Assembly: GCF_041242975.1 (NCBI RefSeq)
Contig: NZ_CP162488.1
Location: 2,780,001 to 2,844,000 of the forward strand
Length of the DNA: 64,000 nt
Reading direction: 5' to 3'
Source of the DNA: Xanthomonas sp. DAR 35659
Lineage (GTDB): Bacteria; Pseudomonadota; Gammaproteobacteria; Xanthomonadales; Xanthomonadaceae
A program made the position numbers and the translations under genes. This document shows, in pieces, positions 9,403 through 50,928 of the stretch. Numbering within the stretch: position 1 is the first letter of the stretch; the number at the start of each line of letters is the position of its first letter. Under the pieces are notes generated by a model. That model was given only the letters and a program-made list of their open reading frames with translations. It was not told the DNA's origin and made no database searches.

Positions 9403-9750
9403 AAGGCCGGGATTGGGGAATGGGGATTGGGGAATCGTAGGAGCCGCATCCCTGGCGCCTTGTTTCCCCTGTAGGAGCGGCTTCAGCCGCGACGCGGTGA
9501 GGCTGGAAATCGGGAATCGGGAATCGCAACAGCGGCTCCCGCTCTCCTCGTACCGCTTCAGACCTTCGCGCGCGCGCTTTTGCGATTCCCTATTCCCCAA
9601 TCCCGCTTCCCGGCTTCACGGCTGCTGAGCTGTTCCTCCGACCAGCCGAGCCGCTATCGGCGCTCGCGCTTCTGCGATTCCCCATTCCCCAATCCCCATT
9701 CCCGGCCCCAAGGCCATCAAGTCCCAAGCCCCCTGGCCGATACCTCCTGC
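9403..9750. repeat. Repeat-rich cheA-motC gap (G/A-rich tracts plus REP-like palindrome)
   Basis: No gene is supported in this 348-nt gap. It holds direct G-rich tracts at 9409-9437 (GGGATTGGGGAATGGGGATT) and 9504-9528 (GGGAATCGGGAATCG), and their complement-type copies at 9582-9613 and 9673-9706 (GATTCCCCATTCCCCAATCC). Between them, at 9471-9496, is a REP-like palindrome beginning GTAGGAGCGGCTTCAGCCGC; a degenerate relative (GTAGGAGCCGC) occurs at 9437. The gap separates the Che block from motC. I see no convincing promoter. Confidence 0.75.
9471..9496 (+). repeat. REP-like palindrome (GTAGGAGCGGCTTCAGCCGC...)
   Basis: The stem GCGGCT / AGCCGC folds around a TTC core, next to GTAGGAG, then continues GACGCGG. 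The consensus GTAGGAGCGGCTTCAGCCGC is a widespread extragenic palindrome type in Pseudomonas and Xanthomonadaceae. Single copy here; a partial half-copy lies at 9437-9447. Confidence 0.75.
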
Positions 9751-19548: not shown

Positions 19549-19575
19549 TAAAGAACTCGGCACACTTGTCGATAC
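19549..19575 (+). promoter_or_regulatory. FliA promoter of MCP2
   Basis: TAAAGAAC (19549-19556), 11-nt spacer, GTCGATAC (19568-19575). The first half of the -35 is perfect; the leader is long (~290 nt). Confidence 0.65.
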
Positions 19576-34266: not shown

Positions 34267-34569
34267 GGCCGGTCAGCAATCGGCCGACGATCGCCATGCC
34301 GGTTCTCCGGCATGGCGATCGCGTTTGTGGCCGCCGCGGCGCTTGTCGGATCCAACCGCCGGATGCCGCCGCATCCACACCCGCTCCGAACCAGCGACCG
34401 CTTCCCGCTCCATCGCCACTCGGCCAATCCTCGCGAAGTGCCGGCTACATCCCCGCTCCACACGCAGATCGCGGCCAAGGACAGCCCGCCCCGCTCGACC
34501 GGCAGACGCCGCCCGGCCCTCGCCGCGCGCGGCCTGGCGGTCGTCCCGCCGACGTATCAGAGATTCTTC
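34267..34569. other. Non-coding gap MCP6-MCP7
   Basis: 303 nt with the MCP6 terminator hairpin; no FliA-type promoter with correct spacing was found before MCP7. The in-frame open stretch back to 34312 overlaps the hairpin and has no receptor similarity, so it is left out of MCP7. Confidence 0.55.
34288..34321 (+). terminator. Hairpin terminator after MCP6
   Basis: Perfect fifteen-pair stem CGATCGCCATGCCGG / CCGGCATGGCGATCG closed by TTCT; the U-tract is weak (CGTTTG). Confidence 0.75.
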
Positions 34570-37128
34570 ATGCCCCTGTCCCCCCAGGCCGCCGCCTCTC
34601 CCCGCCCTCACGGCCTGCATCGCATGGTCCGTGCCTGGCACGACCTGGCGATCGCCAAAAAACTGAGCGTCATCGGCCTGCTCGCCTTGGCCGGGCTGGT
34701 GACCCCGGTCCTGCTCTACAGCGACAAGCTCGACGAGAGCGTCGGCGTCAGCCGCAGCGAACTGCGCAGCTATGCGCCACTGCGCGACATGCTGTCGCTA
34801 CTGGGTGCGCTGCAGGCCGAACGCGTCGAAACCGGCGCCCATGCGCAGGCGGCGGCGGGTCGCGCGGATCGATCGCTGGCCGAGCTGGAACGCAGCGTGC
34901 CCACCCTGCCCGGCTTCGACCAGAGCGCAAAGGCGCTGGCGCGCCTGCGCGAGACGCTGGCCACCGGGCGTGGCGACAGCGAGGTGGTCGCCGAGCGCGC
35001 CGCCGCCGCGCTGGATGCGATGCGCGACGACAGCCAACTGGTCTACACGCCCTATGTGGAAAGCTACCACCTGGTGGTGGCCAGCCTGATCTACGGCCCG
35101 GACACCAGCGAGGCGTTGACGCGCCTGGATGCCGCCGCCGACCCGTCGCAGGCCGGCGCGCAGGCGCCGGTCCTGCACGAGCAACTCGCGCAGATCGCCC
35201 GCCACCATGCACGGCTGCGGCAGGAACTGGAAAAAGCGCTGGGCCTGCTCGAGCGTCCGGATCCGGCGCTGGCCGCGGCCGTCGCGACCGAGGCGGGCCG
35301 GGCCGACCACGCCCTGGCGCAACTCTCCGGCGCGTTGGACAGCGGTGCGCCCGACGCGGACCAGCGCTGGAATCGCGCACTGGACGAATGGGGCCAGGCG
35401 CTGCAGACGCTGAGCGCCGCCTCGCTGCGCGCCCTGCAGGGACAGTCCGCCCGCCACCTGGCGGAAGCGCGCAGCGCGATGTGGTGGACGATCGCCGGGC
35501 TCAGCCTGCTGACGTTGCTGCTGGTGGTGCTGTGTGTGCGCACCCTGGCGGCGCTGACCCGCAACGTGCGTCGTGCCGCCAGCGTCGCCGCCCAGATCGC
35601 GCAAGGCCGTCTGGACACCGCGATCGCGGCGACCAGCCGCGACGAAAGCGGCCAATTGCTGGAGAACATGCAGCGGATGCAAGAGCAAGTGCAGCGCGTG
35701 CTGGCGGCGCAGGTCGAGATGGCGCAGCGCCACGACGCGGGCCAGATCAGCCACCGCATGGACGCCGACGCCTTCCCCGGCGATTACGGGCGCATGGTCC
35801 GGGACAGCAACGCGCTGGCCGCTTCGCACATCGCGCTGACCCAGCGCCTGGCGCAGATCATGGGCCGCTACGCGATCGGCGACCTGTCCGAGGACATGGA
35901 GCAATTGCCCGGCGAGAAGGCGGTGCTGACCGAGACCATGCGCACGGTCAAGCAGAACCTGACCGCGATGAACCAGGAGATCAACCACCTGTCCTCGGCG
36001 GCGGCGGCCGGCAACTTCGCCGTGCGCGGCGATGCGCAGCGCTTCCAGTACGACTTCCGCGTCATGGTCGACAGCCTCAACCAGCTGATGGCCACCGCCG
36101 ACGGCAACCTGGACGCCCTGTCCACGCTGCTCAAGGCCATCGCCGCCGGCGACCTGACCGCGCGCATGCACGGCCAGTTCCAGGGCGTGTTCGCCACCAT
36201 GCGCGACGACGCCAACGCCACCGCCGACCAGCTCGCCGATATCGTCGGCCGCATCCAGACCGCGGCGGTCAGCATCAATGCCGCGGCCAGCGAGATCGCC
36301 ACCGGCAACGACGACCTGTCGCGCCGCACCGAGCAGCAGGCCGCCAGCCTGGAAGAAACCGCCGCGTCCATGGAGGAACTGACCTCCACCGTGAAGCAGA
36401 ATGCCGAACACGCACGGCAGGCCAACCAGCTCGCCGTGGGCGCCGCTTCGGTCGCCTCGCAAGGCGGCGAAGTGGCCGAACAGGTCGCCGTCACCATGAG
36501 CGGGATCGAGGCGTCGTCGAAGAAGATCGCCGACATCATCAGCGTCATCGACGGCATCGCCTTCCAGACCAACATCCTGGCACTCAATGCCGCGGTGGAA
36601 GCGGCGCGCGCCGGCGAACAGGGCCGCGGCTTCGCCGTGGTCGCCTCGGAAGTGCGCACCCTCGCCCAGCGTTCGGCGGGCGCGGCCAAGGAGATCAAGG
36701 GCCTGATCGACGATTCGGTCGAGCGCGTCGCCGCAGGCTCGACCCTGGTCGGTCAGGCCGGCCAGACCATGCAGGAGATCGTGGCCTCGGTGCAGCGCGT
36801 GACCGACATCATGGGCGAGATCTCCGCTGCCTCGCAGGAACAGTCCGCCGGCATCGAACAGGTCAACCAGACCGTCACCCAGATGGACGAGGCCACCCAG
36901 CAGAACGCCGCGCTGGTCGAGGAAGCCACCGCCGCCGCGCGCGCGATGGAGGAACAGGCCGGCCAGTTGGCCGATGCGGTCGGGGCTTTCAAGCTGTCCA
37001 CCACCGCGTCCACGGCCAAGGCCCATCCTGGCGTATCGCCGAGTCCATCCAGCAAAGCTCCAGCACTAGATACAAGGCACGCCACGCGAGCGGCCAGCCC
37101 CCTGGGCCTCCAAGCACACGGGGCCTGA
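34570..37128 (+). CDS. MCP7, methyl-accepting chemotaxis protein, long helical sensor
   Basis: 852 residues from the ATG at 34570 ([10 protein letters not shown]). TM1 ~32-50. The ~250-residue periplasmic domain is all-helical ([31 protein letters not shown]) and resembles NIT- or HBM-type sensors; which one I cannot decide. TM2 ~303-325, five HAMP-like units, signalling domain from ~577. The protein is a mosaic: HAMP stretch like MCP4, a later segment identical in DNA to MCP2 (36692-36760), and the [13 protein letters not shown] tract of MCP6/8. It ends without WxEF. No clear own promoter. Confidence 0.93.
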
Positions 37129-44683: not shown

Positions 44684-46933
44684 ATGTCGTACACCTCGCT
44701 CGTTGCCCGCCTGTCGGATCTGCCGCTGCGCCGCAAGTTCGTCTGGCAAACCGTGCTGCTGGGCGGCGGCATCGTGCTGCTGGCGATCCTGGCCGCGCGC
44801 ATGCAATACGTGGACATCCGCAATACCCGCGAACAGGCGCTGAAGAGCCAGATCGAGCTGGCGCTGGGCGTGGTGCAGGCCTATGCGGCCAAGGCGGAGG
44901 CCGGGCAGATGCCGTTGGCCGATGCGCAGCGCACCGCCCTGGCCACGCTCGAATCGATGCGTGCCCGCGACGGCGTGGACTATTTCTACGTGCATGACAT
45001 GCACCCGACGATGCTGATGCACCCCACCCGGCACGACCTGGTCGGCAAGGACCTCAGCGGCGTGCTCAGCGCCGACGGCAAGCCGATCTTCCGCCAGTTC
45101 GTGACCGCCGCCAACGCCGGCGGCGGCTACGTGGACTATCTGTGGCCCAAGCCGGGCAACGACAAGCCGGTCGAGAAGGTGTCCTACAACGCGCCGTTCA
45201 AGCCCTGGAACTGGGTCATCGGCACCGGCGTGTACATGGACGACGTGCAGGCGCAGGCGCTGCGGTTCACCGGGGTGATGACCGTGGCCGGCGGCCTGCT
45301 GGTGCTGATCACCTTCGGCATCAACTGGCTGATCGGCAGCTCGGTGCTGGTGCCGGTGGGCCGTGCGCTGCACGCGATCCGCGCGGTCTCCAGGGGCGAC
45401 CTCAGCGTCCGCATCGACAACCCGGGGCGCGACGAGACCGGGCAGATGCTGCGCGCCACCGGCGAAATGATCCACGTGCTGGAACGCTTCTCCAGCGAGA
45501 CCTCGAAGATGGCGCTGCTGCACGCGGACAAGGACATCTCCCACCGCATGCCGAACGACTTCCCCGGCGTCTATGGCGAACTGGCGACCGGCATCAACAC
45601 GATGATGTTCGAGCACCTGGACGCGATCGTGGAGGCGGTGGAGATCCTCAACGAGTACGCCAACGGCGACCTGCGCCGCGACGCCCGGCGCCTGCCCGGC
45701 AGCCGCGCGGTGCTGCACGAATCGATGGACGCGGCCAAGGCCAGCCTGCTGGCGATCAATACCGAGATCAAGCGCCTGGCCGCCGCGGCCGCGGCCGGCG
45801 ACTTCAGCGCCCGCGGCGATGCGGCGCACTTCCAGCACGATTTCCGGCTGATGGTGCAGGACCTCAACGCGATGATGGAGGTCAGCGACCGCAACCTGGG
45901 CAAGCTGTCCGCGCTGCTGCAGTCCATCGCCGCCGGCGACCTGACCGCGCGCATGCACGGCGAGTTCCAGGGCGTGTTCGCCACCATGCGCGACGACGCC
46001 AATGCCACCGCCGACCAGCTCGCCGATATCGTCGGCCGCATCCAGCACGCCGCGCTCTCGATCAACACCGCGAGTACCGAGATCGCCGCCGGCAACGACG
46101 ACCTGTCGCGCCGCACCGAACAACAGGCCGCCAGCCTGGAGGAGACCGCCGCCTCGATGGAGGAGCTGACCTCCACAGTGAAGCAGAACGCCGAACACGC
46201 GCGCCAGGCCAACCAGCTCGCGGTCGGCGCGGCCGCGGTCGCCTCGCAGGGCGGCGACGTGGTCGGCCAGGTGGTGACCACCATGAGCGGGATCGAGACC
46301 TCCTCGAAGAAGATCGCCGACATCATCAGCGTCATCGACGGCATCGCCTTCCAGACCAACATCCTGGCGCTCAATGCCGCGGTGGAAGCGGCGCGCGCCG
46401 GCGAACAGGGCCGCGGCTTCGCCGTGGTCGCCTCGGAAGTACGTACCCTCGCCCAGCGTTCGGCGGGCGCGGCCAAGGAGATCAAGGGCCTGATCGACGA
46501 CTCGGTCACCCGTGTCGCCGAAGGCTCGGCGCTGGTCGACAAGGCCGGCCAGACCATGCAGGAGATCGTGGCCTCGGTGCAGCGCGTGACCGACATCATG
46601 GGCGAGATCTCCGCCGCCTCGCAGGAACAGTCGGCCGGCATCGAGCAGGTCAACCAGACCGTGACGCAGATGGACGAGGCCACCCAGCAGAACGCCGCGC
46701 TGGTCGAGGAAGCCAGCGCATCGGCGCGGGCCCTGGAGGAAGAGGCGCGCCGATTGGGCGAGGCCGCGGCCGTGTTCCGGCTCGGCGGCGCCGCCACCGC
46801 CACGGCACCTGTTGTTGCCGCCGCTGCGCCTGCGCGCGCGCCGGCGCGTCCCGCGGTCAAGCCGGCCCGGCCTGCCAGGAGCGCGCCGCGCGCGCCCACG
46901 GCGGTCGCCGAGACCAACTGGGCGGAATTCTGA
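44684..46933 (+). CDS. MCP10, methyl-accepting chemotaxis protein, sCache_2-type sensor
   Basis: 749 residues. TM1 ~18-37. The periplasmic single-Cache domain (~40-190) shows [48 protein letters not shown], as in sCache_2 receptors. TM2 ~195-218. Five HAMP-like units of the MCP1 type ([35 protein letters not shown]), signalling domain from ~468, and a NWAEF C-terminus that closely resembles the Tsr tether NWETF. The DNA at 45590-46000 is nearly the same as in MCP1. sCache_2 receptors often bind small carboxylates; the ligand here is unknown. Confidence 0.95.
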
Positions 46934-47002: not shown

Positions 47003-47029
47003 TCAAGCCCTGGGCGACCCCGTCGATAC
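47003..47029 (+). promoter_or_regulatory. FliA promoter of the tailless sensor-MCP11 unit
   Basis: TCAAGCCC (47003-47010), 11-nt spacer, GTCGATAC (47022-47029); start codon of the tailless sensor 70 nt on. Confidence 0.7.
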
Positions 47030-47099
47030 ACGAGGTGACGCATGAACGCACTGCCTGCCCGATCCATGCCGTCGCCATCGCCGCTTCGGGGGACATGAG

Positions 47100-47666
47100 A
47101 TGCCACGCTATACCGACCTGAGGTCGTCGCTGCTCGCCTCGCTGCTGTGCCTGATGGGCTGCGCGCTGGTGATCGGCGCGGCCCGACTGAGTACCGCGCT
47201 TGACGCCTCGCGGGAGCATCTGCTGCAGCTGCAGACCCGGCAGGCGCCATCGGCGCTGGCCCTGCGCGAACTGCGCGCGCAGTTGGCGGAGCTGCGGCTG
47301 TACCAACTCTCGCTGGTCGCCGCGACCGGCAACGCCGCGGACGTGGCCGACTGCGACCGGCGCATCGCGCGCACGTTGCAGGGCGTGCATCGGCAACTGG
47401 CCCTGTACGTCGCCAGCCGGCCCGACGGCGAAGAGGACCGTCGCTTCGCCCGGGTTCGGACCGAGCTGGACGCCTTCCTGGACCTGCACCGGCAGCTCAG
47501 CGCCGCGGTGCATGCCGGCGACCGCGACCGCGCCGGGCAGCTGTCCACGCAACGGGCGCTGCCGCTGCGGCGGACGCTGTTCGCCCACCTGATGGAGCTG
47601 GACCGGATCAACGCCCGCCAGGCGTCGGCCAGCCACGCAACGCCCCGCGCCTACGCCGCGCGCTAG
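47100..47666 (+). CDS. Lone 4-helix-bundle receptor sensor domain without signalling tail
   Basis: 188 residues: an N-terminal membrane helix (~8-30, [20 protein letters not shown]) then a helical periplasmic domain to the end. It is collinear with the sensor of MCP11: [15 protein letters not shown] against [14 protein letters not shown], and [16 protein letters not shown] against [15 protein letters not shown]. There is no second TM, HAMP or methyl-accepting domain; the frame stops at 47664 with no MCP remnant before the intact MCP11 start 67 nt on. It has its own FliA promoter. It may dimerise with or compete against MCP11 or bind its ligand; it could also be a duplication by-product on the way out. 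Confidence 0.8.
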
Positions 47667-47733
47667 CGCATCCCCTGCCCCTCCCCAGCACCGCTTCGGC
47701 ACCTTCTTCGGCAAACGCCCGCACGGAATCGTC

Positions 47734-49971
47734 ATGAACTTCTTCAAGCAGCTGAAAATCCGCGACAAGCTGATGCTCGCCTTCGCCCTGATCACGTTAT
47801 TGACCGTGGTGCTGGGCGCGTTCACCTATTCGCGGACCACCCTGGCGATGAGCGAACTGCGGCGCATCGAAGTGGATTGGGTGCCGGCCACCCAGGCGCT
47901 GGCCGAGGTCCGTGCGCAGTTGGGCGAATTCCGCACCTACGAGCTGGCGCAGATCGCGCGCGCCAACGACCCGGAGGCGGTGGCGGATTACTTCAAGCGC
48001 ATGCAGAAGGTGCGCGCCGAAGTGCAGAAGAACCAGATCGTCATCGAGCGGGTGATGCGCGAGAAGCAGCAGGCGCAGATGTACGCCGGAGTCAAGGACA
48101 CGCTGCAGGCCTACCTGCACAGCAACAGCCTGATGGGCGATGCGCTGCGCGGCGGCGACGTCGCCGCCGCGCAGGCGATCTCCGACAAGCAGTCGCGGCC
48201 GCAGCGGCGCGAACTGTTCGACCGCATCGTGGCGCTGACCGACTACAACGTCGCGCAACTGAACCGGGAAATGGACGCCATCAATGCGCAACTGGCGCGG
48301 ACCAAGCTGCTGATCATGACCCTGCTGGGGCTGGTCATCACCGCCGCCGCCAGCATCGGCTGGCTGATCGCGCGCGGCATCGCGCGGCAACTCGACGCGG
48401 CGCGGCAGCTGTCGCAGGCCATCGCCCGCGGCGAACTGGATAGCCGCGTACAGGCGCGCTCCAACGACGAGATCGGCCAACTGATGGGCGACATGCTGGA
48501 CATGCGCGGCCGCATCCGCGCGGTGATCGACGCGCAGAACCAGATGGCGCAGCGCCATGAGCAGGGCACGATCAGCTACCGCATGGACGAGGCCGCCTTC
48601 CCCGGCGATTACGGGCACATGGTCAAGGCCACCAACGACCTGGTCGGCGCGCATATCGCGGTGAAGATGCGCCTGGTGCAGATCATCGAGCGCTATGCGA
48701 TCGGCGACCTCAGCGAGGACATGGACCGCCTGCCCGGCGAGAAGGCGGTGGTGACCGAGGCGATGGACACCGCCAAGGCCAACCTGATGGCGATGAACGC
48801 GCAGGTCAAGCAACTGGCCGAGGCCGCGGCGGCCGGCGACTTCAGCGCCCGCGGCGATGCCGCGCGCTTCCAGTACGACTTCCGCGCGATGGTGGAGAAC
48901 CTCAACGCGATGATGGAGGTCAGCGACCGCACCCTGGGCGAACTGTCGCAGTTGCTGCAGGCCATCGCCTCCGGCGACCTGAGCGTGCGCATGCACGGCG
49001 ACTTCCACGGCGTGTTCGCCACCATGCGCGACGACGCCAACGCCACCGCCGAGCAATTGGCCGCCATCGTCGGCCGCATCCAGAACGCGGCCGCCAGCAT
49101 CAATGTCGCATCCTCGGAAATCGCCGCCGGCAACGACGACCTGTCGCGCCGCACCGAGCAGCAGGCCGCCAGCCTGGAGGAGACCGCCGCCTCGATGGAG
49201 GAGCTGACCTCCACCGTCAAGCAGAACGCCGAACACGCGCGCCAGGCCAATCAACTCGCGGTGGGCGCCGCCTCGGTCGCCTCGCAGGGTGGCGAGGTGG
49301 TCGCGCAGGTGGTGAGCACCATGAGCGGCATCGAGGCGTCGTCGAAGAAGATCGCCGACATCATCAGCGTCATCGACGGCATCGCCTTCCAGACCAACAT
49401 CCTGGCCTTGAATGCGGCCGTGGAAGCGGCCCGCGCCGGCGAACAGGGTCGCGGCTTCGCCGTGGTCGCCTCGGAAGTGCGCACCCTCGCCCAGCGTTCG
49501 GCGGGCGCGGCCAAGGAGATCAAGGGCCTGATCGACGATTCGGTCACCCGTGTCGCCGAAGGCTCGGCGCTGGTGGACCAGGCCGGCCGCACCATGCAGG
49601 AGATCGTGGCCTCGGTGCAGCGCGTCACCGACATCATGGGCGAGATCTCCGCCGCCTCGCAGGAGCAGTCGGCCGGCATCGAGCAGGTCCACCAGACCGT
49701 GACGCAAATGGACGAGACCACCCAGCAGAACGCCGCGCTGGTCGAGGAAGCCACCGCCGCCGCGCGCACGATGCAGACCCAGGCCAACCAGCTCAGCGCC
49801 ACGGTCGCCGAGTTCAAGCTGGACACGCGGGCCGCCGCGCCGGCACCCCTGGCCCTGGCGGCGGCGCCGGCCCAGGTCAGGGCGCGCCCCGGCGCCGCCG
49901 CCTCGCGTCCGGCGCCGCGCGTGCGCAGCGCCGCCGGCGCCACCGCCGCGGACCAGTGGCAGGAATTCTGA
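47734..49971 (+). CDS. MCP11, methyl-accepting chemotaxis protein, 4HB sensor
   Basis: 745 residues. TM1 ~12-32. The 4HB periplasmic domain (~33-190; [20 protein letters not shown]) is homologous to the lone sensor upstream. TM2 ~192-213. Five HAMP-like units (GELDSRV, GTISYRM, GDLSEDM, GDFSARG, GDLSVRM), combining features of both HAMP-chain types in this array; signalling domain from ~465, with [11 protein letters not shown] instead of the usual QVNQ. It ends QWQEF, a CheR/CheB tether. Probably co-transcribed with the lone sensor (67-nt gap). The cheRDB promoter follows 36 nt later. Confidence 0.95.
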
Positions 49972-50006: not shown

Positions 50007-50033
50007 TCAATTTCGTGCGGCGCCGGCCGATAA
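50007..50033 (+). promoter_or_regulatory. FliA promoter of cheR-cheD-cheB
   Basis: TCAATTTC (50007-50014), 11-nt spacer, GCCGATAA (50026-50033). The -10 is a perfect consensus match. Confidence 0.92.
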
Positions 50034-50061: not shown

Positions 50062-50928
50062 ATGGCCACTCCGACGTCTTCCCTGCCCCCTGCCGGTTCC
50101 GACAATCGCGATTTCGAATTCAGCGACCGCGACTTCAAGCGCGTCTGCGACCTGATCTACCAGAAGGCGGGCATCGCCCTCGCCCCGGCCAAGCGCGACA
50201 TGGTCTACGGCCGGCTGTCGCGGCGCCTGCGCACGCTGGGCCTGCGCTCGTTCCGCGACTACCTGGACGCGCTGGAACGCGACGGCGGCGAGGAGTGGGA
50301 GGCGTTCACCAATGCGCTGACCACCAACCTGACCTCGTTCTTCCGCGAGCCGCACCACTTCGAGCGCCTGCGCGAGGAATTGCAGAAGCATGCCGCCGCG
50401 GCGCCGATCAAGATCTGGTCGTGCGCCTCCTCCACCGGCGAGGAACCGTACTCGCTGGCGATCACCGCCTGCGAGGCGTTCGGCACGCTGACCCCGCCGG
50501 TGCGGATCCTGGCCACCGACGTGGATACCCAGGTGCTGGCCACCGCCTCGCGCGGCGTCTACGCGATCGATCGCATCGCCAGCCTGGACCCGGCGCTCAA
50601 GCGCAAGTACTTCCAGCGCGGCAGCGGCGCCAACGAAGGCCAGTGCCGCGTGGTGCCGGCCTTGCGCGACCTGCTCGAGTTCCGCCAGTTGAACCTGCTG
50701 GAGCCGCGCTACGACGTGAGCGGTCCCTACCTGGCGCTGTTCTGCCGCAACGTGATGATCTATTTCGACAAACCCACCCAGCGCGGGATCCTGTCACGGC
50801 TGATCCCGCACCTGGACGACGAGGGCATGCTCTACACCGGCCATTCGGAGAACTACCTGCATGCGGCCGACCTGATCCAGCCCTGCGGCCGGACCCTGTA
50901 CCGGCGCGCCGGCAAGGCACGCGCATGA
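50062..50928 (+). CDS. cheR: CheR, chemoreceptor glutamate methyltransferase
   Basis: SAM-dependent methyltransferase that methylates receptor glutamates during adaptation. It has 288 residues: N-terminal helical domain ([19 protein letters not shown]) and C-terminal SAM-binding domain ([30 protein letters not shown]). First gene of a three-gene unit with 4-nt overlaps. Several receptors in this window end in the W-x-E-F tether that some CheR enzymes bind; whether this CheR has the matching beta-subdomain insertion needs structural comparison. Confidence 0.97.

Follow-up and report, generated by a model that had tools for sequence, protein, structure and literature searches.

The genome of Xanthomonas sp. 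DAR 35659 contains, within a 64,000-nucleotide (nt) stretch that we refer to as the window (RefSeq contig NZ_CP162488.1, positions 2,780,001 to 2,844,000; all positions given below are those of the window), an open reading frame (ORF) of 188 codons, here called "TAIL" (47100-47666, + strand), and directly 3' of it the gene for a full-length chemoreceptor, or methyl-accepting chemotaxis protein (MCP), here called "MCP11". TAIL corresponds to the four-helix-bundle (4HB) sensor domain of such receptors and to none of their other parts. On comparative grounds we put at about 0.5 the probability that TAIL serves MCP11 as a co-sensor in the periplasm. This reading fits because the two genes are constant partners with what appears to be a shared promoter, because TAIL seems to retain the outer part of the receptor bundle, and because it has a secreted-type sister, "TAIL2", in related genomes. 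The analysis suggests that Xanthomonas may sense chemicals with the assistance of a helper protein that resembles the outer sensing part of the receptor.

Architecture and predicted structure of TAIL

The window TAIL matches the Pfam families TarH (PF02203, 41.2 bits against a curated cut-off of 25.2) and 4HB_MCP_1 (PF12729, 37.9 bits, cut-off 27), and all 11 members of a set of TAIL proteins match both families at E of 0.01 or less. No Pfam match to HAMP or to MCPsignal (PF00015) was found in the window TAIL, and neither family is listed for any of the 11 proteins of the set. The alignment with MCP11 (BLASTP, 27% identity over residues 7-174, E 7e-13) is collinear. TAIL has a single hydrophobic segment (residues 10-28, hydropathy 2.27 in 19-residue windows), and past residue 60 its hydropathy reaches a maximum of 0.76, versus 2.15 for the second segment of MCP11; in 12 TAILs (all but that of genome G396) the corresponding maximum is just 0.50-0.83, with no segment resembling a second transmembrane helix (TM2). 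Lacking MCPsignal, TM2 and HAMP, TAIL is not itself a chemoreceptor. These results agree with a preliminary description made from the sequence of the window, which had noted a clean frame and a protein with one transmembrane (TM) segment and a helix bundle collinear with the MCP11 sensor, but no TM2, HAMP or signalling domain. Another candidate, that TAIL is a lipoprotein, was rejected; the LMGC of the window protein resembles a lipobox, but Cys occurs at position 21 in only 8 of 13 TAILs.

An AlphaFold2 model built from an 11-row alignment (pLDDT confidence score 82.3) places helices at residues 7-48, 50-74, 79-105, 110-138 and 142-180 and has the form of a four-helix bundle on one TM helix, with residues 1-50 at lower confidence (50-74). 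The best matches to the model in the PDB, as ranked by Foldseek, comprise a histidine-kinase sensor and the chemoreceptor ligand-binding domains of Vc1313, MCP2201, Tsr and Tar, at probabilities of 0.98-1.00. TAIL is thus predicted to be a periplasmic four-helix bundle with one N-terminal TM segment.

Distribution of TAIL and constancy of its partner

In the window's own GTDB genus (g1, 20 genomes), TAIL orthologues at E 1e-25 or better are present in 10 of the 20 genomes and are 54-77% identical to the window protein; the carriers include X. bonasiae FX4 (G015), Xanthomonas sp. AmX2 (G008), X. bundabergensis (G014), Xanthomonas sp. NCPPB 2654 (G006) and Xanthomonas sp. SI (G011). All ten proteins have an ATG start and a length of 188-189 amino acids (aa), and their genes end 50-67 nt 5' of MCP11. 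In a second GTDB genus (g30), whose database name is also Xanthomonas and which includes X. arboricola, X. fragariae and X. maliensis, TAIL was found in 2 of 35 genomes (X. arboricola CFBP 7645, G313, and another X. arboricola, G316), between cheA and an MCP gene, and in a third genus (g29) in 1 of 38 (G396), where it encodes 184 aa and lies about 47 nt 5' of an MCP gene, as measured from the end of the ORF and the start of the match. All candidates were scored in these three genera, whereas searches of the family and order took the best 8 or 11 candidates per genome and might have missed copies. Among the best 8 candidates per genome, a profile search of 398 genomes of the order found no further TAIL at 1e-34, and the matches other than TAIL in 395 genomes of the family reached at most 121 bits and were mostly long MCP-like frames. 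A diverged TAIL-like protein of 184 aa (P0018), encoded on a contig of 1156 bases, raises the possibility that the family extends past the genomes examined.

In 13 of 13 TAIL genomes, from three GTDB genera, the gene directly 3' of TAIL encodes an MCP11-type receptor, separated from it by 47-67 nt; the 5' neighbours vary and can be MCP10, MCP9, cheA or another MCP gene. The MCP11-type sensors (20 rows, made up of the g1 proteins and the receptors behind TAIL in G313 and G396) form one clade with support of 100/99, and the receptor behind TAIL in G316 shares 80% identity with the G313 sensor. In g30, a comparison confined to 34 che regions showed the MCP11-type receptor only in the two TAIL carriers; 18 of the other 32 have another receptor type at this place (74-100% identical to that of G149 and 44-49% to MCP11), one has a weak match elsewhere and 13 have none. 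The association with MCP11 that the preliminary description drew from a single genome is therefore stronger than could have been known at the time.

A promoter for the TAIL-MCP11 unit

The site that resembles a promoter for FliA (sigma-28) upstream of TAIL was called from what we take to be the FliA consensus. The passages available from a study of Xanthomonas FliA (PMC5550985) do not give a consensus. The motif TCAAG-N14-GYCGATA occurs three times on the two strands of the window, and the looser TMAA-N15-GYCGATA occurs six times, including the site at 47003; neither was seen in 60 dinucleotide shuffles. The other FliA-like sites are at 9717, 19549, 37244, 41568 and 50007, and those at 19549, 37244 and 50007 lie shortly 5' of MCP or cheR starts.

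In all ten g1 genomes with TAIL, 65-75 nt lie between the end of the site and the start codon (the G008 site has a spacer that is one base longer), and the same site lies 5' of MCP11 in all eight g1 genomes that have MCP11 but no TAIL. In none of the ten genomes with TAIL was a FliA-like site found in the 3'-terminal 150 nt of this gene or between it and MCP11. A promoter private to TAIL, as implied by the earlier attribution to it of its "own FliA promoter", is consequently rejected; the promoter is a shared, ancestral one and, as far as the motif can tell, it appears to be best read as that of the unit, with TAIL as the first gene, although MCP11 might also have promoters of other types. The presence of the site in genomes that lack TAIL, together with the absence of an internal site, therefore makes TAIL and MCP11 a two-gene cassette. 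The site ends 57-59 nt upstream of TAIL in G313 and G316, and in G396 it was seen by eye. With the TAIL2 genes discussed below, FliA-type sites precede 10 of 10 TAILs in g1, 2 of 2 TAILs in g30, 32 of 32 TAIL2 genes and also the TAIL2 of G326; the motif suggests that these genes would depend on FliA.

Conservation, selection and loss

A codon model (IQ-TREE, GY+F3X4) gave a ratio of non-synonymous to synonymous change (omega) of 0.217 for TAIL (10 taxa, 187 codons), with a log-likelihood (lnL) of -3144.9 versus -3262.1 for omega set to 1 with topology and kappa unchanged, which is a gain of 117; omega is 0.142 for the MCP11 sensor and 0.046 for the MCP11 signalling part. The early suggestion of selection rather than decay was thus borne out, in that conserved orthologues of uniform length exist in half of the g1 genomes and relaxed codon change was not seen.

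Comparison of the conserved positions in TAIL (13 rows) and MCP11 (20 rows) identified 25 columns in which the two have the same residue, each with a conservation of 85% or more. Since 23 of these lie in residues 54-167 and only M1 and L7 lie before, TAIL seems to have retained the outer bundle and lost the membrane-proximal constraints. A further 20 columns are conserved in TAIL without being common to MCP11.

The eight g1 genomes that carry MCP11 without TAIL provide indications of how TAIL might be lost. In G009 the leader, as far as the start of TAIL, aligns with that of G015 over 166 nt at 77% identity, and the MCP11 start then follows, which looks like a clean deletion of TAIL. In the other seven, 362-440 nt separate MCP10 and MCP11, and a sequence 67-70 nt 3' of the promoter (GGGAGC-ACGTG-ATGCC) resembles the leader and start of TAIL; this putative remnant has 5-6 mismatches in 23 positions, and 0-5 of 2000 shuffled spacers were as good, for a consensus that was picked after the resemblance had been seen. 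No TAIL protein remains were recognisable by tblastn in the eight spacers (best E 0.32). In a tree of CheR plus MCP9 from 18 genomes, G009 groups with G006, which has TAIL (100/100), and a single clade contains the seven (100/100). If the root is placed on G008, as it is for MCP11 in the sensor tree, an ancestral state with TAIL and two later losses would fit best.

Descent of the free sensor domains

When 4HB domains were compared, TAIL and TAIL2 fell together into a single clade, with support of 100 in a quick tree of 84 rows, 100/100 in a careful tree of 76 rows and 100/100 in a tree of 79 rows to which G396 and two receptors had been added. Because of this grouping, the free sensor domains, as judged from the trees, are one old family. 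From the 76-row tree on, the rows W31849, W28538, oth_L063, L049, L055, L062, L020 and L021 were omitted, and L067 had no usable sequence; the six omitted oth_ rows have an odd letter make-up and probably represent the wrong strand, and the clade had already reached 100 with all 84 rows. A recent duplication of the MCP11 sensor was rejected as the origin of TAIL, which groups with TAIL2 and not with MCP11. The full receptor nearest to the clade is an MCP of genome G373 (95/86). This full-length protein, encoded on the reverse strand of L112 (5051-7300 when counted on the reverse complement), is a candidate for the ancestral architecture.

TAIL by itself is not a clade in trees that hold all TAIL and TAIL2 rows, so that a TAIL clade separate from TAIL2 was not resolved with both present, and TAIL2 may have originated within TAIL. 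The joint clade persists when the two g30 TAILs are removed (97, quick tree), and TAIL becomes one clade (100) when TAIL2 is removed. When TAIL is removed, TAIL2 groups weakly (73) with the MCPb proteins of G313 and G316, which are 4HB receptors, and the sisterhood of TAIL2 depends for this reason on having TAIL in the tree.

TAIL2, a secreted-type sister of TAIL

TAIL2 is newly recognised here as a sister family present in 33 of 35 g30 genomes. It is the second lone 4HB gene of this genus, with an open copy of 175-179 aa in 32 of 34 regions and a diverged copy of 173 aa in X. maliensis (G326). No match was found in G203 (a draft of about 410 contigs), and G316 has TAIL only. Outside g30, no TAIL2 was found among 297 genomes of the family (best 11 candidates per genome), the other matches being TAIL or MCP sensors. 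The source annotations are mostly "hypothetical protein", with some "methyl-accepting chemotaxis protein" or "secreted protein". Codon change is constrained in TAIL2 as well (omega 0.115, 32 taxa; lnL -5305.9 versus -5821.1 at omega 1), and the gene has a FliA-like site of its own that ends 48-51 nt upstream in the 32 regions and 45 nt upstream in G326.

Judged by eye, the N-terminus of TAIL2 reads as a cleavable signal peptide that ends in PPSFA-APAAP and is near-invariant in 31 aligned copies; no second hydrophobic segment exists beyond it in the five copies profiled. A Pfam search gave PF12729 for 22 of 24 copies with E-values of 1 or less (the lowest being 1.4e-4), and the X. arboricola protein scores 15 bits against the cut-off of 27. 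The model of TAIL2 (pLDDT 69.5, residues 1-44 mostly below 50) has a shorter first helix (residues 47-71), and Foldseek matches it to Vc1313, the same kinase sensor as TAIL, a designed protein, Tar and MCP2201, at E 0.004 and up. The TAIL2 branch shows the periplasmic domain kept alone, and a protein with a signal peptide and no anchor therefore weighs against any role that needs the membrane segment.

The 3' neighbour of TAIL2 is a Cache receptor related to MCP10, 152-541 nt away in the 27 regions where its 5' end is intact; no FliA-like site was found in the 400 nt 5' of this receptor in these 27 regions. In five g30 genomes (L081, L089, L093, L095 and L107, which are G124, G322, G331, G219 and G286) the 5' end of the Cache receptor was not found, and TAIL2 is open in all five.

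Genomic setting

A run of MCP genes and a chemotaxis region surrounds TAIL in the window, and the features nearest to it are listed in Table 1. MCP10 was not found between MCP9 and TAIL in G017 and G001, both of which retain TAIL-MCP11. Elsewhere in the window, an MCP of 938 aa (34312-37125) has no Pfam match at 0.01 before its HAMP (residue 414) and might represent an unrecognised sensor type.

Table 1. The TAIL-MCP11 unit, its neighbours, and the genomes of the same genus that have MCP11 without TAIL
Feature	Position	Strand	Basis or remark
FliA (sigma-28)-like site of the TAIL-MCP11 unit, TCAAG-N14-GTCGATA	47003..47028	+	71 nt 5' of TAIL ATG
Ribosome-binding-like GGGGGA 5' of TAIL (GGGAG in most relatives)	47088..47093	+	Sequence; 10-genome leader alignment
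TAIL, lone 4HB sensor protein, 188 aa	47100..47666	+	ATG start, clean frame, 188 codons
Gap TAIL-MCP11, 67 nt	47667..47733	+	No FliA-like site in gap or last 150 nt of TAIL (10/10 genomes)
MCP11, full chemoreceptor, 745 aa: 4HB sensor, HAMP, HAMP_N3, HAMP_2, MCPsignal	47734..49971	+	Pfam
MCP10, sCache_2 chemoreceptor 5' of TAIL	44684..46933	+	Pfam
CheR, 3' neighbour in 18/18 g1 genomes compared	50062..50928	+	FliA-like site at 50007
MCP11 without TAIL: G009, G003, G005, G007, G010, G012, G018, G019 (L040-L047)			Promoter kept in all eight

Possible roles of TAIL

A course of events can be imagined by which a co-sensor might have arisen and might work. TAIL probably descends from a 4HB receptor that lost its TM2, HAMP and signalling domain. 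Transcribed from one FliA-type promoter, TAIL and MCP11 would be made together and with the flagellar and chemotaxis genes, as the promoter sequence and gene order suggest, and the anchored TAIL bundle would sit in the periplasm beside the homologous sensor of MCP11. There it would change what MCP11 senses or how strongly. It might do so within a mixed bundle, in which TAIL pairs with MCP11 or a TAIL dimer lies against an MCP11 dimer, or it might bind the ligand of MCP11 and pass it on. By analogy with the co-component systems described in the accessible parts of PMC9214523, a partner that has no output domain could set the response to ligand. Co-expression, contact with MCP11, ligand binding and an effect on signalling are all properties that we infer for TAIL. 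A wider scheme is conceivable, although we hold it to be doubtful, in which TAIL and MCP11 constitute a co-component chemoreceptor whose mixed bundles set the ligand range, secreted TAIL2 carries or buffers ligand for other receptors, and a sensor domain has turned, throughout Xanthomonas, into a subunit of chemotaxis that can diffuse.

Several observations weigh against a co-sensor. MCP11 can do without TAIL, since 8 of the 18 g1 genomes that carry MCP11 have no TAIL; TAIL is in this sense dispensable to MCP11, and these genomes also speak against an obligate heterodimer. Conserved columns that are found in MCP11 only number 92. In Nei-Gojobori (NG86) comparisons with the window, the ratio is higher for TAIL (0.34-0.68) than for the MCP11 sensor (0.25-0.44) in 9 of 9 pairs, and with omega at 0.217 this means that TAIL is, by these estimates, faster-evolving than the MCP11 sensor yet under clear constraint. 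The structural matches to TAIL have weak Foldseek E-values (0.007 and up), and a sequence-profile search of the PDB gave no chains at 0.01. Finally, TAIL2 adjoins a Cache receptor, which has an unrelated sensor, and not a 4HB receptor, so the pairing of like with like is not a general rule.

The last of these points would suit a different role, in which anchored TAIL and secreted TAIL2 act as ligand buffers or scavengers and set the free ligand concentration or range for several receptors, with no specific receptor contact. We consider this somewhat improbable. It would account for the signal peptide of TAIL2 and its freedom from other hydrophobic segments, and for the location of most columns common to TAIL and MCP11 within the bundle, but a general buffer would not need the same receptor type beside it in every one of the 13 TAIL genomes.

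It is unlikely that TAIL is a dominant-negative subunit, which would pair with MCP11 monomers through the sensor, withdraw them from signalling and so provide a set-point for receptor number. A homologous, collinear sensor encoded just 5' of MCP11 speaks for such a subunit, and passages of PMC4692393 describe dominant-negative subunits that spoil heterodimers; however, TM1 and the beginning of helix 1, up to residue 54, hold only 2 of the 25 common conserved columns, and TAIL2 has no anchor and a modelled first helix that is shorter, albeit in a model with residues 1-44 at low confidence. Gardina and Manson (1996), moreover, report in their title that a dimer with one cytoplasmic domain signals.

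We attach a similarly small likelihood to a role other than sensing, as a factor in the periplasm that helps to assemble or stabilise MCP11 or the receptor array. The constant partner and shared promoter would suit a chaperone equally, and a precedent exists in the protection of ToxR by ToxS (PMC9214523, in the parts accessible), but G009 seems to have lost TAIL cleanly while keeping a full-length MCP11 frame behind the same promoter. That TAIL is a decaying or chance ORF, the leftover 5' piece of a duplicated receptor kept open by G+C-rich DNA, is very improbable, and is refuted for the family: half of g1 lacks TAIL and the window copy, on a long branch, has lost one residue by deletion, but omega and the likelihood gain, the uniform length in ten of ten g1 genomes, the 33 of 33 open copies of TAIL2 and the occurrence of TAIL in three GTDB genera all point the other way.

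Relation to known systems

TAIL and TAIL2 would represent a new class of chemotaxis component, in which sensor domains exist as separate proteins behind flagellar-type promoters and one form is tied to one receptor type; they would also offer a natural test of what receptors can do when their partner lacks a cytoplasmic part. Both proteins would be missed in catalogues where the signalling domain is used to count receptors. In the open-licence literature, supplements excluded, no description of a freestanding 4HB chemotaxis protein was found in the passages available, and the corresponding parts of papers on Xanthomonas chemoreceptors (PMC8547431, PMC3542200, PMC5003339, PMC9866238, PMC6562643) list MCPs and do not describe a lone sensor, although one of them mentions six hypothetical proteins in a cluster of X. 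albilineans (PMC3542200).

The domain that TAIL most resembles is the Tar/Tsr-type 4HB ligand-binding domain (PF02203, PF12729), which it matches in sequence family, predicted fold and probable periplasmic position. The difference is that theirs is part of a receptor, and here it is a separate protein, which is anchored in the case of TAIL and has a signal peptide in that of TAIL2. The usual description of chemoreceptors presents them as self-contained, with sensor, membrane link and output in one chain and with unrelated binding proteins as helpers at most. The fold of periplasmic solute-binding proteins is unrelated to the 4HB sensor. Those read by Tar and Trg (named in the accessible text of PMC9214523) resemble TAIL in being separate periplasmic proteins that work with the sensor of a receptor, but TAIL is a homologue of the receptor's own sensor.

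A Tar dimer with one cytoplasmic domain was reportedly made by Gardina and Manson in 1996 as a laboratory construct, and likewise has one chain that lacks the cytoplasmic part; TAIL is a natural, conserved gene. As far as the available parts of PMC12691602 describe it, QseG, an outer-membrane lipoprotein that is accessory to the histidine kinase QseE, is similar in being an envelope protein that acts on a membrane sensor, and differs in that lipidation is not a family trait of TAIL. A parallel in gene arrangement might be drawn with VtrA/VtrC and ToxR/ToxS, which PMC9214523 presents as two-gene cassettes for a protein with an output domain and a periplasmic-domain protein without one. The adjacent pair with one outputless partner, as in VtrA/VtrC, is found for TAIL and MCP11 in 13 of 13 genomes; the known cassettes combine a lipocalin-like fold with a helix-turn-helix transcription factor, whereas TAIL-MCP11 combines a predicted four-helix bundle with an MCP.

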